A stretch of DNA of 64,000 bases from Phytoseiulus persimilis (lineage: Eukaryota; Arthropoda; Arachnida; Mesostigmata; Phytoseiidae), in assembly GCA_037576195.1 (NCBI GenBank), contig CM075101.1, positions 34,472,001 to 34,536,000 on the forward strand, given 5' to 3'. Of the stretch, positions 53,713 to 60,372 are shown piece after piece. Every line of letters starts with the position of its first letter. Positions within the stretch are counted from its first letter, which is position 1. The notes under the pieces are model-generated. The model saw nothing but the letters and a program-made list of their open reading frames with translations. It had not been told where the DNA came from and ran no database searches. The position numbers and the translations under genes are program-made.

Positions 53713-56547
53713 ATGAGTTCACTTTTTGGAGAGCGAGCCACTGCGGAGCTGGTTGGCAAATTGCGCCTCTTAACTGCTTGTGAATTGTGTAAGAAACCGT
53801 GCAGTGAAACATTTTTCGCGGTTGAATGTGGTCACTACACCTGCAAGAACTGCGTGTGTCAAGAGAAGGTTAGCATACTATAAATTCCTTCCTGCCAGAC
53901 AGCTGGAAGAATCATTGTCTCAAGGTACCTCATGTACTAACGAAGTCTCCCTCGAAAGGATGCGTGCTCAAAATGTGACGTGAGGGGGATGGTTCTTCGA
54001 GCTCACTATCTGGACCCGATCAGCGAAACCCTATTGAAACTCAAGGATCTATTATGTGGCGAACAACCCCTGAAGCCCAATGGTCTCAAAAGAAGAGCTG
54101 ACCAAGACTTGATGTGAGTCGCTCGCAGTACTCATTGGCTTTCCTGACATCATCCCATTGATTATATCCCGTTCTCACCTAAGGATGCTGACGTTCTCCC
54201 TATTCCAGGACTCCAACGACGAAAGCTATTAAGAGCTCCCCAGCAGCGTCAAACCTCAAAAGCCCGACGATCGATGCCATTTTCGCGCGCAAGTCAAAAC
54301 CCTCCAATGTGGGAAGTCCGGTCACCCCTCGACCCTTGGGTATTCCGTCCAATGCTACGGCGTCGGTTGTCAAGGGTCTAGAAGAAGTGATTCATGCGAG
54401 CGTCGACCCATCGAAATCAATCAGAGATTCTCCCACAGTCAGAACAGTTACCGATAGGAAGCAATGTGGTTGTTCATGTGACAAGCCAGGCTTTGCTCTT
54501 CTACCGAAATCGTCCGATTCGGGCGTCCAAGTTTCCAACAGGTGGGCTTCGCATATTCGACGCAGAGAGTCTCCCAAACTGACTCCGTGAAGAGTTTATT
54601 CCCATTTCAGTGTACTGACTCTAGATGTGGCCGTGCATGCGAAACCCTCAATGAAAGACAGTCAGATGCAGACCGACGAATCGATGTGCAGCCTCCAAAA
54701 GCCCGTCTCCCGATCAGCTGGTATTGAAATCTCGATCCCTCCACGAAACAAATTTGTGTAACGAGATACGTATCGATAAATCGATGAGTATTATTATTTT
54801 CAGGAGTCCAAACAGAGAAGCCGCACATACGCGTGAAACGCTTTTTCGAAACAGCAGTTCAGACAGACGAACTGATGGATAAGTTATGTGGTGAACTTTG
54901 TCCAGAAGCTAAGTCCCTGACCAGTACTCAGGCGGGGAGCGAGAATCAAACAGTGCACGCGCAACCCATAAGCCTCGACATGAGCCCTATTAAGCAGATG
55001 TATCGCTCGGACTCATCGAATAAAACTCCTTCAAAACGGGAGAACGTTAGTAACGGTTATATAAGTATACATCCAAAGATATATATGCTCAAAGGTGTAC
55101 TATTTTGATGTATCGTTGGAATCTCTCGAAATCCGAGATGGAATTCCTCGTGGGAGTTTCCTCTTCTTAAGTGTGAAATAATTCCCAGAAGGACACGTTG
55201 GATTCATTAGACTACAGAACGATGGACCTGAGAGAAGCTGGTGATGATGCCCGAGGAAAGGAAATTCCGCCCCCGAAGCAAGTGACGCCCGAGGTGAGCA
55301 GGGTCTTCCATAGTTTCGGACCTTCATAATCTTGCTTGAGTCTCCCGGCAAGGCATGAATAGGCTTGGGCTTCTCCTCTCGGATTGCGGCTTGAACTCTA
55401 CTTTTCTGAGTCTTTACACCCGCCCACAAATCATCTGGGAGGCTTTGCTCGCTCATTCCTCTAAGGCACAACGCGTTCCACTCGAGTCCCCCGAAGTCTT
55501 TCGCGTCGTCCGAGGTCTCGAGGGAAAAGACTCGAAGGTCATTTTCATTGAGATTCGGCTCATCCAGATTTTCGAGTTTACTGGACTGTACACCGCGTTT
55601 GCAACCGCGTTTGTACAACCAACGCGATTGATATCTGTCCAGCCTCGGAAACTTCTCCATCTAATCAACCTTCTGAAATCCAGCCAGATTCTCTCGATTA
55701 CCTTCCGAGTGACCTCTTCAACGAGTTGGATAAAGCGCATAAAAGCGCCCCTTCAAAAAAAAATGAGAGTCAACCAGAACAGGTACCTCGTCGATCTAGC
55801 ACGGAAGGAGAATTTCGAGCACGGCATGCCCGTCGAGCTTTCGATACAACTTTTCTGATATGGTTCCGTTAACTGCTCATTCCTCAGAGAGACACGTTAG
55901 AGTCATTCTTCAAGAGCAGTGACGAGGCGAGCATACCTGAGACCGAGCCACCGTCAAACTTTGCATCCCCGCTCAAAGCGACAAAGTCGAAACGCGCGGT
56001 TGCCAGATCCGAATCCGACAGTCCGCTCAGACTCACCGAGAAGAAGAAGAAAACCGTCATCATGAGCGACGAGGACGAGCCTCTAATCAAAACGCGGTTC
56101 GAAGGCACAGATCAGCGGAATCGATCTTTGAAAACGAAGTCGTCAACGACAGTGAAGGAGAGCCGAGCGGTAATTGCTTAGGAAGAATCTTATGCGACTT
56201 CGTCCAGTCAAATGAAAAGATCCTCACTGAGCCCCTCATTGTCTTACGCAGATGAGAAAATCCCAGTCACGAATCGCGAAAGCGTTGCCAACATTCAGCA
56301 GCGACGAGGACGATGCGGATCCGCTTCCGATGGACACTGAGGACATGCGGAACCTCGAAAAGTAATTCTAACTCTCCATTCCAAACAAAAACATCCACAT
56401 GGAACTTGCATATCGTTGTGAATCTTCAGGTATATGAGAAATCTTCATGAAAACTCATGCGCAGAAAATCTCTTTGGTTACAGGGAGATTGAGAATTTGG
56501 ATCGTGAAATGGAAGACAGTAAAACTTGTGGCAAAAGCCGCTTCTGA
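53713..56547 (+). CDS. RING-finger protein with a BARD1/BRCA1-like N-terminus, 10 exons
   Basis: Probable E3 ubiquitin ligase subunit in the nucleus. Exons: 53713-53868, 53959-54113, 54209-54541, 54611-54720, 54804-55045, 55189-55293, 55684-55782, 55888-56169, 56252-56361, 56430-56547; 569 residues. C3HC4 RING split by intron 1: Cys23, Cys26, Cys39, His41, Cys44, Cys47, Cys55, Cys58, followed by LDPISETLLKLKDLLCGE, placed like the post-RING helix of BARD1. The rest is Ser/Thr/Lys-rich and looks disordered, with acidic-Ser patches (MSDEDEPL, SSDEDDADPLPMDTED) resembling CK2 sites. QTDE occurs twice. No ankyrin or BRCT domain before the stop, so it is shorter than BARD1 (777 in human). Exons 6-8 are all phase 0 and begin with related text (KDTLDSLDY, PDSLDYLPSD, RDTLESFF). 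Lineage-specific BARD1 or a separate RING gene; family assignment is tentative. Confidence 0.8.
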
Positions 56548-58182
56548 AGGGCGGGCTCCAATAATCTATTTACGCTTTCTCAGCGGGGTTTGCAAGGCTA
56601 TGTTGACCGTTGCAAAGTCCTCCTGGTGCACGTAGCTAATATTCGGAAAGGTTTTTGCGGTAACTTATCTCTACTCAATAAATTTTATGATGCCAACAGT
56701 GGGCGATAAATCTTGCACATTTGTATTGAGTGCGAGTTTCGATCGGAACAGGTGATCATTGGTGCCTTCCACTTTTTGGGTATTCCTGATTGCGTTCCGG
56801 TCGCAGCAGATCCCAGTGCTGACTCCCATGCGCCGCTGTTATCATGCATTTTGTTCGCGACGACAAAACTACGACGGAAACCGCCATGGCTCGCCTGTCC
56901 AAAGTTCCCAGGACAGCGGAATCAACTGAACCGTAGGGAGGAATATCAGCCAGGAATATCGCGCTTCCGACAAGCTAGCAACCTGAACTCGGATTCCAAT
57001 CGGAAATCTTCTCCCAGGACCTTTGACCGTTCTACCGTTGAGATTGTTACCCTAACTACGAAGTTTGTTTCCGTGAATCTCTCACCCTCAACATTGAGGA
57101 TCTATGGTGACCTCTCAGCGCTGTCCCTCTGCTTGGAGGAAACATTTCATATGTGTTCCAGCCGAACAGCTGGAACATATTTCCCAGTTTGTTGTACGCC
57201 TATCAGGTGCTCTCTCGCATAGAGGATCCCGTGAATCAGGCTCCCACGAGGGGCTCGAGAACAGTGGCTCCCAACTTCCGCTGTCCCGTACGCAACCGGC
57301 GATACGGTCCAACGCATTCCCTGAGGTTCGCCACCTCCCCATGCTGTGTTGTTGAAGCCACCCTCTAACTCGCACGCTACAACCCGTTGAGGCCTCGAGT
57401 ATTACTTTCGCCTGTGTTGTCGCTTCCGTTCTCAACTGTAGGGGCGATGGTTGGGGCCGCGAACCTGTCGAAGCTTTCGCTCCGAGGGACTCGAAGTCAA
57501 ATACCATCGTTACCGTCCGTTGGACAGCCTGCGGAAGTGGCGTCAATATGGGATCCGTCCCCCTCCTCCCAAAGAGAACGCTTGTCTTGCGCCTGCTTCC
57601 AGTTCCAACTTCAAGTGGACAACTCCTCGCGCGGTGGAATATTATTTGCCGGAGAAAACGATTTTCGCGCGTCATTTCGAAACTCGGTGTGGTGTTGCTT
57701 TCGGCTGTCGGTCGGGTGCTTCTTCGTTCCGCATCACATTCTGTCCGAAATCGACCTGCTGTGCCATCACTGGACTCTGGAGACACAGTCGACGAACATT
57801 CAGGGCGCTCGAGCCAATAGCTGTGGAGACCTAAGAAGTGAAATCCGTTTCAAGAACGAGGCGAGTGAACTGCAGCGACTTGTCCCAGACAGGCGCCGAG
57901 CTTCAACGGGACACAAGCTGTTAGGGGATCGCAGCGCCCAGTTGCGGAGGCAGGGGCAATAGCGAGAGCCGTAGCCAGAAAGCGAGCGAGTGAGGGAGTC
58001 GGAGGGAAGAAGAAGACGTTACGAGCCAGCGAACGAGGCAGGCGACAGCAGCTATCCGGCAGCCAAGGCTAAACACTTCGACCTCGTCTCGTCTATTTAC
58101 ACCGGGCGTTCTCTTCTTCCTCTTTTTACAGTGTGTGCAGTGGTGGTGTGTTCTCCTGACGACGAGAGAGGAGTCTGTCTGT
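56548..58182. other. RING gene 3' end to zinc-finger gene start, unassigned
   Basis: After the RING gene 3' UTR comes 57.1-57.96 kb with long open frames on both strands (minus 57115-57786; plus 57387-57962 and 57451-57834). None shows a recognisable domain, and three overlapping frames cannot all be real. It may include 5' non-coding exons of the zinc-finger gene. A purine tract with AGAAGAAGA lies near 58008. Confidence 0.35.
56677..56682 (+). terminator. Poly(A) signal of the RING gene
   Basis: AATAAA 130 nt downstream of the TGA stop. Confidence 0.75.
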
Positions 58183-60372
58183 ATGGAAGAACTGGCAGAT
58201 ATCGTCAGGGTGGCTGCGGAAGCCACGAATAAGGATACGGTGTCGTTTGAAATCGGCCCCAACGAAATTCTCAATGAGCTTGTGGTGCCTCCCGACTCCA
58301 GAATCGGAGAGTGAGTATTTGATATTGCGTCCATGAAATCGCGAGTGGCGGGCATCGTTGAGAAAGTCGTGTGAGAGATGACAGATCGGTATGCAGTCTC
58401 CGACACTTGTCTGTCAGCTAGGTAGTGAGCGTCAGAGGCAGCTCTGCCGATCCGAGAGTCGGCCTACCGAACGCCTCATCCGATCGTCTCAGTGCCGTGT
58501 CATAATCGTCGACCGTTCGAGATTGCTCCCAAATAGTTTTCGCCCTGGAACCTACTCGGGTCGCTCGGTTGATGAGTTGATGACCGTTATTCAACTCTGG
58601 AATCCCTATTCTTTAAGCAGCAGGGATCTTCTCGGGCGGAGAAGACGAAGAGCAGCACCCACCGAACGGAATGTGGGAGATCACCAGTGTAGAGTTTGTC
58701 TCAAGAGATTCCGTCAGCTTGGACACCTGACCAATCATTTACGGCTGCACACAGGTTCGCCATGTACCGTCGTGAATTCATCGATATCCAGAATGCCTCC
58801 TCTCTTTGATTTCCCCGAATTTCTCATGTTCAGCTTCATGCATGAAAAGCTGAAGCTCAGTTTCATTCCCAGGAGAAAGACCGTACGAGTGCGAATTTTG
58901 TCACAAACGCTTCACGCAAACGGGTCATTTGGTTTCACACATAAGGTGTCATACGAAGACGAGACCTTACGAATGCCAGTTCTGTCGTAAGAAGTTCACT
59001 CAAAGTGGACATCTCAGTAATCATGAACGTCTCCACCTCGGTGAGTCTTTGCATATACTGGTGCTCACACTGGTTCTCTATGAATCGAAACATCTACCGG
59101 AGTTGATCACGTTCTCGGATATATTCCGGAACATCGGCACAGGGTAGCAATTAACGTCTCGTGACTCCTACCAATCGCCGGAGAAGTGTTCGGATATGAC
59201 TACTACTCGAATCCTGCACGACCCTCGTTAGGTTCGAGTGTATTAAAGTGAAGAACTTCTCGCAGGTGAGAAACCTTATCAGTGCAAAGTTTGCTTCAAG
59301 AATTTCACACAGAGTGGCCATCTGGTTAACCACATGAGATTGCACGACGGCCAGAAGCCGTTCCAATGTCCCATATGCTCAAAAAAGTTCACGCAATCGG
59401 GACATCTGAGTAACCACATTCGGCATCATGAAGGTGGCAAAACGCACCAGTGTCACTTCTGTCACAAGAAGTTCACCCAGGTGAGATACGATTGCTCATT
59501 CAAAACAAAAACTCGGCTAGGGAGCAGTGTTGTCGTTCTGGACTGCATTCCCGTCTCAGAGCCTTTTCGTCTCAGGTTCCGGATTTCACCCAGCGTCAAG
59601 CACTTCTTCTTACCCTTTCAGGCAGGTCATTTGGTAGACCACATCAGGACGCACACAAATGAACGTCCATATGAGTGTTCTATCTGCGCCAAAAGCTTCT
59701 CCCAGAACTCCCACCTTACCGCTCACATGCGAACTCACCGCAATATTGTGCTGGAGGATCGCGGTCCTCCTCCACCTGCGACCAGTGTCGGATCCTCATT
59801 GCAATCTCTCAACCAAGTCGCTGCAGTGACAGGTGTCTCCATGTCAAGCTTCATGGCACCACCTCCGATCTACGCCCCTCCGAACGCCCCTAACCTACTG
59901 CAGCTCACCACGGCCACAGCGGCTGCGATGGCTGCAATCCAGGCCGCTCGTCCTCTGATCGTCCGCGTGAAAAGGGATGAGGAAACTGGCTTGGTTGGGG
60001 CGTCAGCAGGCGCCAGTGACATATATGGGCATTCGACAGATGTACTCACAGAAGTGGATCTCGAAGAAGACACGCAGCCGGGAGAGGTGGCGGAAGACAT
60101 GGTAGGTTATTGAATACGTCCGAGCCTTGCTCAGATGAGACGGCTCTCATGGAGCAAGGGATCTCAGTGACTTTGTCTTCCAGCGTATGAATCAGCCGTC
60201 TACCTCGAGAGCCTCGTCGGTGAAATCTGCGGCTGGCTCGACGTCTTCTGGTCTCGTAGAGGAAAACAGTTCGAAATTCGAAATCGGCGAAGATGTTGCC
60301 TTCGTCGCTTCAGTAATGCACTCGCAAGAGGTCGCTAGTCTTGGGGAACTAGGGAAAAGCGCAGATCCGTGA
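58183..60372 (+). CDS. Seven-finger C2H2 zinc-finger protein, 6 coding exons
   Basis: Probable sequence-specific nuclear DNA-binding factor. Exons: 58183-58310, 58621-58754, 58873-59040, 59266-59480, 59622-60101, 60184-60372; 437 residues. Exon 1 is an acidic leader (MEELADIVRVAAEATNKD). Then RRRRR and seven C2H2 fingers over residues 66-254, joined by linkers such as HTGERPYE, HLGEKPYQ and HDGQKPFQ. Helix starts are nearly identical: RQLGHLTNH, TQTGHLVSH, TQSGHLSNH, TQSGHLVNH, TQSGHLSNH, TQAGHLVDH, SQNSHLTAH. Three introns are phase 1 in the linker Gly; a phase-0 intron splits finger 6. After the fingers comes an Ala/Pro-rich region (MAPPPIYAPPNAPNLLQL), then a Ser-rich acidic tail. Exon 2 has a CAGCAG acceptor, so one residue may be optional. 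I do not recognise a named orthologue. Confidence 0.88.

Follow-up and report, generated by a model that had tools for sequence, protein, structure and literature searches.

On contig C1 of the Phytoseiulus persimilis assembly lies a predicted gene for a C2H2 zinc-finger protein whose seven fingers all carry Gln at helix position -1 and His at +3, residues that are retained throughout the first five fingers of two paralogues. The protein is probably a transcription factor that reads a 15-21 bp element made up of consecutive NGA triplets, and its family has at least three members in this genome. The gene was found in a stretch of 64,000 nucleotides, hereafter the window, and the assembly searched comprises 181 Mb in 127 contigs, the first four of 54.7, 52.0, 38.9 and 28.1 Mb.

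Gene model and domain content

The gene is predicted to consist of six exons spanning 58183-60372 on the plus strand and to encode 437 amino acids, with five introns that are all of the GT-AG type (Table 1); the start codon and the splicing are predictions from the sequence. Because the 3' splice site in front of exon 2 reads CAGCAG, this exon could begin in frame at either 58621 or 58624. Intron 4 has a length divisible by three and no in-frame stop codons, so translation of unspliced RNA would remain possible, with finger 6 broken. Retention of intron 4 would disrupt finger 6 and spare the other fingers, a possible switch of array length.

Table 1. Predicted exons, the intron inside finger 6, paralogue loci and NGA runs near the start codon (window positions, except for the paralogues; finger positions run from first Cys to last His, and helices are read from -1 to +6)
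Feature	Position	Strand	Description
Exon 1	58183-58310	+	Predicted start codon 58183-58185; N-terminal 42 codons and two bases; GT donor after 58310, in frame with exon 2
Exon 2	58621-58754	+	Finger 1 (58688-58750, QLGHLTN)
Exon 3	58873-59040	+	Finger 2 (58890-58952, QTGHLVS); finger 3 (58974-59036, QSGHLSN)
Exon 4	59266-59480	+	Finger 4 (59283-59345, QSGHLVN); finger 5 (59367-59429, QSGHLSN); first half of finger 6 (59451-59480)
Intron 4	59481-59621	+	141 bases; interrupts finger 6 between helix -1 and +1
Exon 5	59622-60101	+	Second half of finger 6 (to 59654, QAGHLVD); finger 7 (59676-59738, QNSHLTA); C-terminal tail begins
Exon 6	60184-60372	+	Remaining C-terminal tail and stop codon
Paralogue L031	C2:46461747-46462290	+	Array search
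Paralogue L032	C2:46174822-46175328	-	Array search
GGAAGAAGAAGA, four NGA triplets (AGAAGAAGA of the original prediction, near 58008)	58005-58016	+	Upstream of start codon; one of 19 window runs
AGAGGAAGAAGA, four NGA triplets	58112-58123	-	

From the first Cys through the last His, the seven fingers span residues 66-254, and each begins 28 residues after its predecessor. The helix residues are exactly those claimed in the original prediction at every finger, that is, Gln(-1) in seven of seven, His(+3) in seven of seven and N, S, N, N, N, D and A in order at +6. Of the six linkers, the one between fingers 1 and 2 is the sole member of the TGE(K/R)P type; the other five (TKTRP, LGEKP, DGQKP, EGGKT and TNERP) are non-canonical, so simultaneous binding by all seven fingers is not required.

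The protein belongs to the C2H2 (Kruppel-type) class, since its fingers follow CX2CX12HX3H with 7-residue linkers and PF00096 and PF13465 score over the cut-off. Ten Pfam families match at E 0.001, every match being inside the fingers, and DUF5810, over its cut-off at residues 176-195 and overlapping finger 5, is taken for a cross-match. No BTB, ZAD, KRAB or SCAN domain was found by Pfam at E 0.001, a result that depends on the predicted start codon, and both tails are without a recognised domain; apart from the two exons that encode it, a search with the C-terminal tail gave one match, at E 0.53. GAF is defined by a GAGA-factor finger (PF09237) together with a BTB domain, and as neither was detected (Pfam, E 0.001) the protein falls outside that class. 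In addition, matches to PDB sequences at E 0.001 comprise 257 and 255 distinct sequences, with ZNF568, Aart, CTCF and PRDM9 among the best 60 listed in each case. Apart from the uniformity of its helices, the protein looks like an ordinary zinc-finger regulator.

Paralogues and retention of the helix residues

The search of the genome with the array gave 173 matches, with 150 of 495 candidates scored, and the two paralogue loci share 61-73% identity with the array versus at most 52% for the other matches listed outside the gene. The three genes constitute a family of at least three members, having intron positions in common and QxGH helices in fingers 1-5. As read by eye, the introns in the linkers of fingers 1-2 and fingers 3-4 are placed alike in all three, and the intron inside finger 6 is common to the window gene and L031. 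The helices of fingers 1-5 are QMGHLRN, QSGHLVS, QSGHLRN, QSGHLVN and QSGHLSN in L031, and QKGHLRS, QSGHLIS, QSGHKRN (with Lys at +4), QSGHLVN and QSGHLSS in L032. Fingers 6 and 7 of L031 (HADFLEG, across the intron, and TEDYLGI) are without Gln(-1)/His(+3), and fingers 6-7 were not seen at the L032 locus; the pair is consequently present in 17 of the 19 array fingers of the family. Upstream in L031 there is one more match resembling a finger, with helix TANELKE; it also lacks the pattern and possibly lies outside the gene.

Fingers 1-5 were compared for the pairs window-L031, window-L032 and L031-L032, and values are given in this order. Positions -1 and +3 are identical at 10 of 10 places and +2 (Gly) at 5 of 5 in each of the three pairs, against 25, 19 and 28 of 55 for the other exposed positions. 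Position +6, which is N or S throughout these fingers, is identical in 5, 3 and 3 of 5, and +1 and +5 in 6, 5 and 8 of 10. One-sided Fisher tests of -1, +2 and +3 against the other exposed positions give 5.6e-5, 2.6e-6 and 2.1e-4, values that are descriptive, as pairs and fingers are not independent. Furthermore, at 52 of 81, 40 of 71 and 44 of 83 identical residues (Met and Trp excluded) the codons differ, and at several fingers this holds between paralogues for Gln and His too. Since identical residues are written with different codons, protein-level constraint is favoured over recent copying, and the retention of the helices fits selection on base-contact residues since the divergence of the three genes. 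The five-finger core is conserved whereas fingers 6-7 are altered in a paralogue, which hints at the fingers that matter.

Candidate orthologues outside the genome came from scans with the paralogue alignment, one locus from 22 pattern matches in viral contigs and two loci from 78 in genome contigs, and at 37-41% identity they were not accepted. One is a C2H2-like stretch on an IMG/VR contig (L071, 37% identity to the query). The others are C2H2-like stretches with 38 and 41% identity, on contigs labelled Kistimonas, a metagenome bin (L072), and Endozoicomonas acroporae (L073), and these may be contamination or bacterial C2H2 arrays.

Other zinc-finger arrays of the genome were surveyed at 40 loci, picked by their match to zinc-finger queries and not at random, which gave 35 non-family strand rows of four or more fingers and 368 fingers in total; the regular expression used is blind to intron-split fingers and detects six of the seven in the window gene. 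Gln(-1) occurs in 90 of the 368 non-family fingers, His(+3) in 79 and both in 47, of which 29 belong to one giant array. None of the 35 rows is uniform for the pair, the highest shares being 2 of 4 (L045) and 29 of 67 (L050), so that the surveyed arrays bear out the earlier statement that most multi-finger proteins vary these positions. The product of such frequencies is an unfair test, because tandem fingers are related by duplication; the comparison of the paralogues is the fairer one. At locus L046 (C1:53761000-53765500, minus strand) five of six fingers carry Thr(-1)/Asn(+3), and near-uniform helices are therefore uncommon in this genome but not unique.

The giant C2H2 coding array lies at C3:21186143-21206296 on the minus strand (loci L050, L003, L012, L015, L016, L019, L021, L023, L024 and L030). 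In it, two adjoining open frames, which share a reading frame and are parted by one stop codon, encode 84 fingers in 2,482 aa and 69 fingers in 2,021 aa; further frames hold 28 fingers in 1,239 aa and 5 fingers in 256 aa, and a few repeated helices (QSSHLAS, QSNHLAS, CSGNLAR and CSGSLAR) make up most of the array. Its number of fingers per frame exceeds that of any described protein known to us. An artefact of the assembly may account for it, or it may be a pseudogene or coding satellite.

Predicted triplet preference and rival readings

Gln at -1 in general prefers A, and His at +3 prefers G. By the usual rule, position -1 contacts the third base of the triplet, position 3 the second and position 6 the first (excerpt of PMC6613534). 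In the excerpted tables of engineered modules, QSGHLQR is assigned to GGA, QLAHLRA to AGA and QAGHLAS to TGA (PMC3607563); QSGHLQR is also used twice running for GGA GGA in a nuclease labelled active (PMC3237566) and serves for GGA in a protein of seven fingers labelled (++) (PMC4219604). A nuclease labelled inactive contains the AGA module QLAHLRA (PMC3237566). In three papers, moreover, GGT is assigned to QSSHLTR (PMC3237566), paired with QSGHLTR in a table (PMC5260015) and, in the weakest binder of three, paired with QSHR (PMC5260074). Each finger had been proposed to read xGA or AGA; the module tables for GGA, AGA and TGA make xGA plausible, but, because some QxxH helices are tabulated for GGT, it is credible and not certain. 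As excerpted, the engineered modules resemble the window gene at -1 and +3 and mostly at +2, but they carry Arg, Ala or Ser at +6, whereas the window gene has mostly Asn there, plus Ser, Asp and Ala, and is a natural gene with seven such fingers running. These +6 residues match the modules poorly, so the first base of the triplet stays open, and the array is predicted to target (NGA)7, of which (NGA)5 is the conserved core, rather than (AGA)n.

Within a literature coverage that takes in few subscription papers, searches by helix string and for natural GA/GGA-reading arrays showed no natural protein with such an array among the papers listed and no occurrence of the string TQSGHL. The excerpts of PMC4627083, PMC2999557 and PMC11613955 hold nothing on these helices; in the last, the MAZ and PATZ1 motifs are described as resembling the CLAMP motif.

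The occurrence of the predicted sites was counted as exact 21-mers with overlapping matches over the 181 Mb; the DNA search is flagged as skipping simple repeats, and the pattern counts for GA dinucleotides and (CGA)7 are stated as whole. (AGA)7 is the rarest of the four pure NGA repeats, with 6 matches at 5 places, and (TGA)7, (CGA)7 and (GGA)7 have 39, 130 and 13 matches, against 12, 38 and 11 for the reversed-pattern controls. The comparison repeat (ACA)7 has 39 matches and GA-dinucleotide 21-mers have 2,872 overlapping matches; for AGA, ACA and GA the reversed pattern equals the pattern and gives no control. The window contains 19 runs of at least four NGA triplets and 4 of at least five, whereas 60 first-order Markov sequences average 5.8 (maximum 12) and 0.4 (maximum 3), respectively, an excess that coding bias could produce; runs of six or seven are absent from the window, the longest being five triplets. 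The 40 surveyed regions hold 39 runs of at least four in 190,537 bases. Three runs of four lie within 58005-58651 and three more start within 56039-56302, a clustering noticed post hoc. At the paralogue loci, a single run of at least four occurs at L032, on the opposite strand and upstream of finger 1 by about 3.4 kb, and the 9 kb at L031 contain none. Autoregulation through the tract near 58008 was considered and rejected, as this tract has four triplets and is one of the 19 window runs, and L031 has no such run.

These counts bear on the idea that the protein is a reader of simple repeats, binding (AGA)n or GA-rich microsatellites and organising chromatin like fly GAF and CLAMP, which we regard as improbable. 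The uniform helices, the excess of NGA runs in the window and the CGA and TGA repeats above their controls would suit such a protein, but (AGA)7 is found at only five places in the genome, (GGA)7 is barely above its control and the longest window run falls at five triplets. Besides, GA-dinucleotide tracts would place GA in register at alternate triplets only, and CGA and TGA repeats can encode acidic runs, a possible cause of their number. A reader of (AGA)n is not our preferred reading, given how seldom perfect 21-base sites occur; with the first base not fixed, that part of the original prediction is not supported, and neither is a GAF- or CLAMP-like action, the abundant GA tracts being out of phase with a triplet reader. 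Since GA repeats fit alternate triplets only, a role at GA/AGA microsatellites becomes weaker and a mixed NGA element of 15-21 bp stronger.

Another reading, unlikely in our judgement, is that the uniformity was mainly inherited by tandem finger duplication and kept by slow drift or fold constraints, so that few fingers would contact DNA and the motif would be short or different. It draws on the commonness of Gln(-1) and His(+3) among the non-family fingers, on the near-uniform L046 and on the five non-canonical linkers, and it is opposed by positions -1, +2 and +3, which are fixed in fingers 1-5 of the three paralogues despite wide synonymous divergence while the remaining positions in the same fingers did drift. 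Some C2H2 proteins bind RNA or protein, and the non-canonical linkers would agree with an array that chiefly does so instead of binding a DNA series; the retained positions, however, are the base-contact positions, and this reading is very improbable.

Proposed mode of action and related systems

If the protein is expressed and reads mixed NGA elements, its fingers would follow the major groove of an (NGA)5-7 element of 15-21 bp, finger 7 taking the 5' triplet of the strand read and finger 1 the 3' triplet. Gln(-1) would contact the 3' A and His(+3) the middle G, and the first base would be loosely set by Asn, Ser, Asp or Ala at +6. Fingers 1-5 would form the conserved core on about 15 bp, fingers 6-7 being under less constraint, and the protein, presumably nuclear, may bind promoters or enhancers and recruit partners via its tails.

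Drosophila CLAMP is likewise a multi-finger C2H2 array, and its long GA-rich motif is better bound by six fingers than by four (excerpt of PMC4945028). Compared by description, CLAMP has six C-terminal fingers and a Gln-rich domain, whereas the window protein has seven fingers and other tails. C. elegans EOR-1 and Drosophila GAF have GA-rich targets (excerpt of PMC5741055), as proposed for the window protein; EOR-1, however, is a BTB-zinc finger protein, according to a reference title in the same excerpt, and the window protein is without a BTB or GAGA-factor domain (Pfam, E 0.001). The structures 5wjq and 5v3m of Zinc finger protein 568, the best PDB sequence matches, likewise consist of many C2H2 fingers set in a 28-residue register, but their helices differ from those of the window gene in the alignments shown, and the best 60 of the 257 PDB matches are named as other proteins.

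Because every finger would read the same NGA word, the array could dock in several registers three bases apart. A doubtful but conceivable extension is that these proteins are homotypic zinc-finger "rulers", whose affinity would count the length of an NGA-phased tract rather than recognise one unique site, the paralogues counting with five to seven fingers. If the motif holds, the protein would be a naturally occurring equivalent of the homotypic arrays made by design, and it would offer a clean test of the predictive power of the C2H2 recognition code in a little-studied species, with one protein and one repeated prediction.
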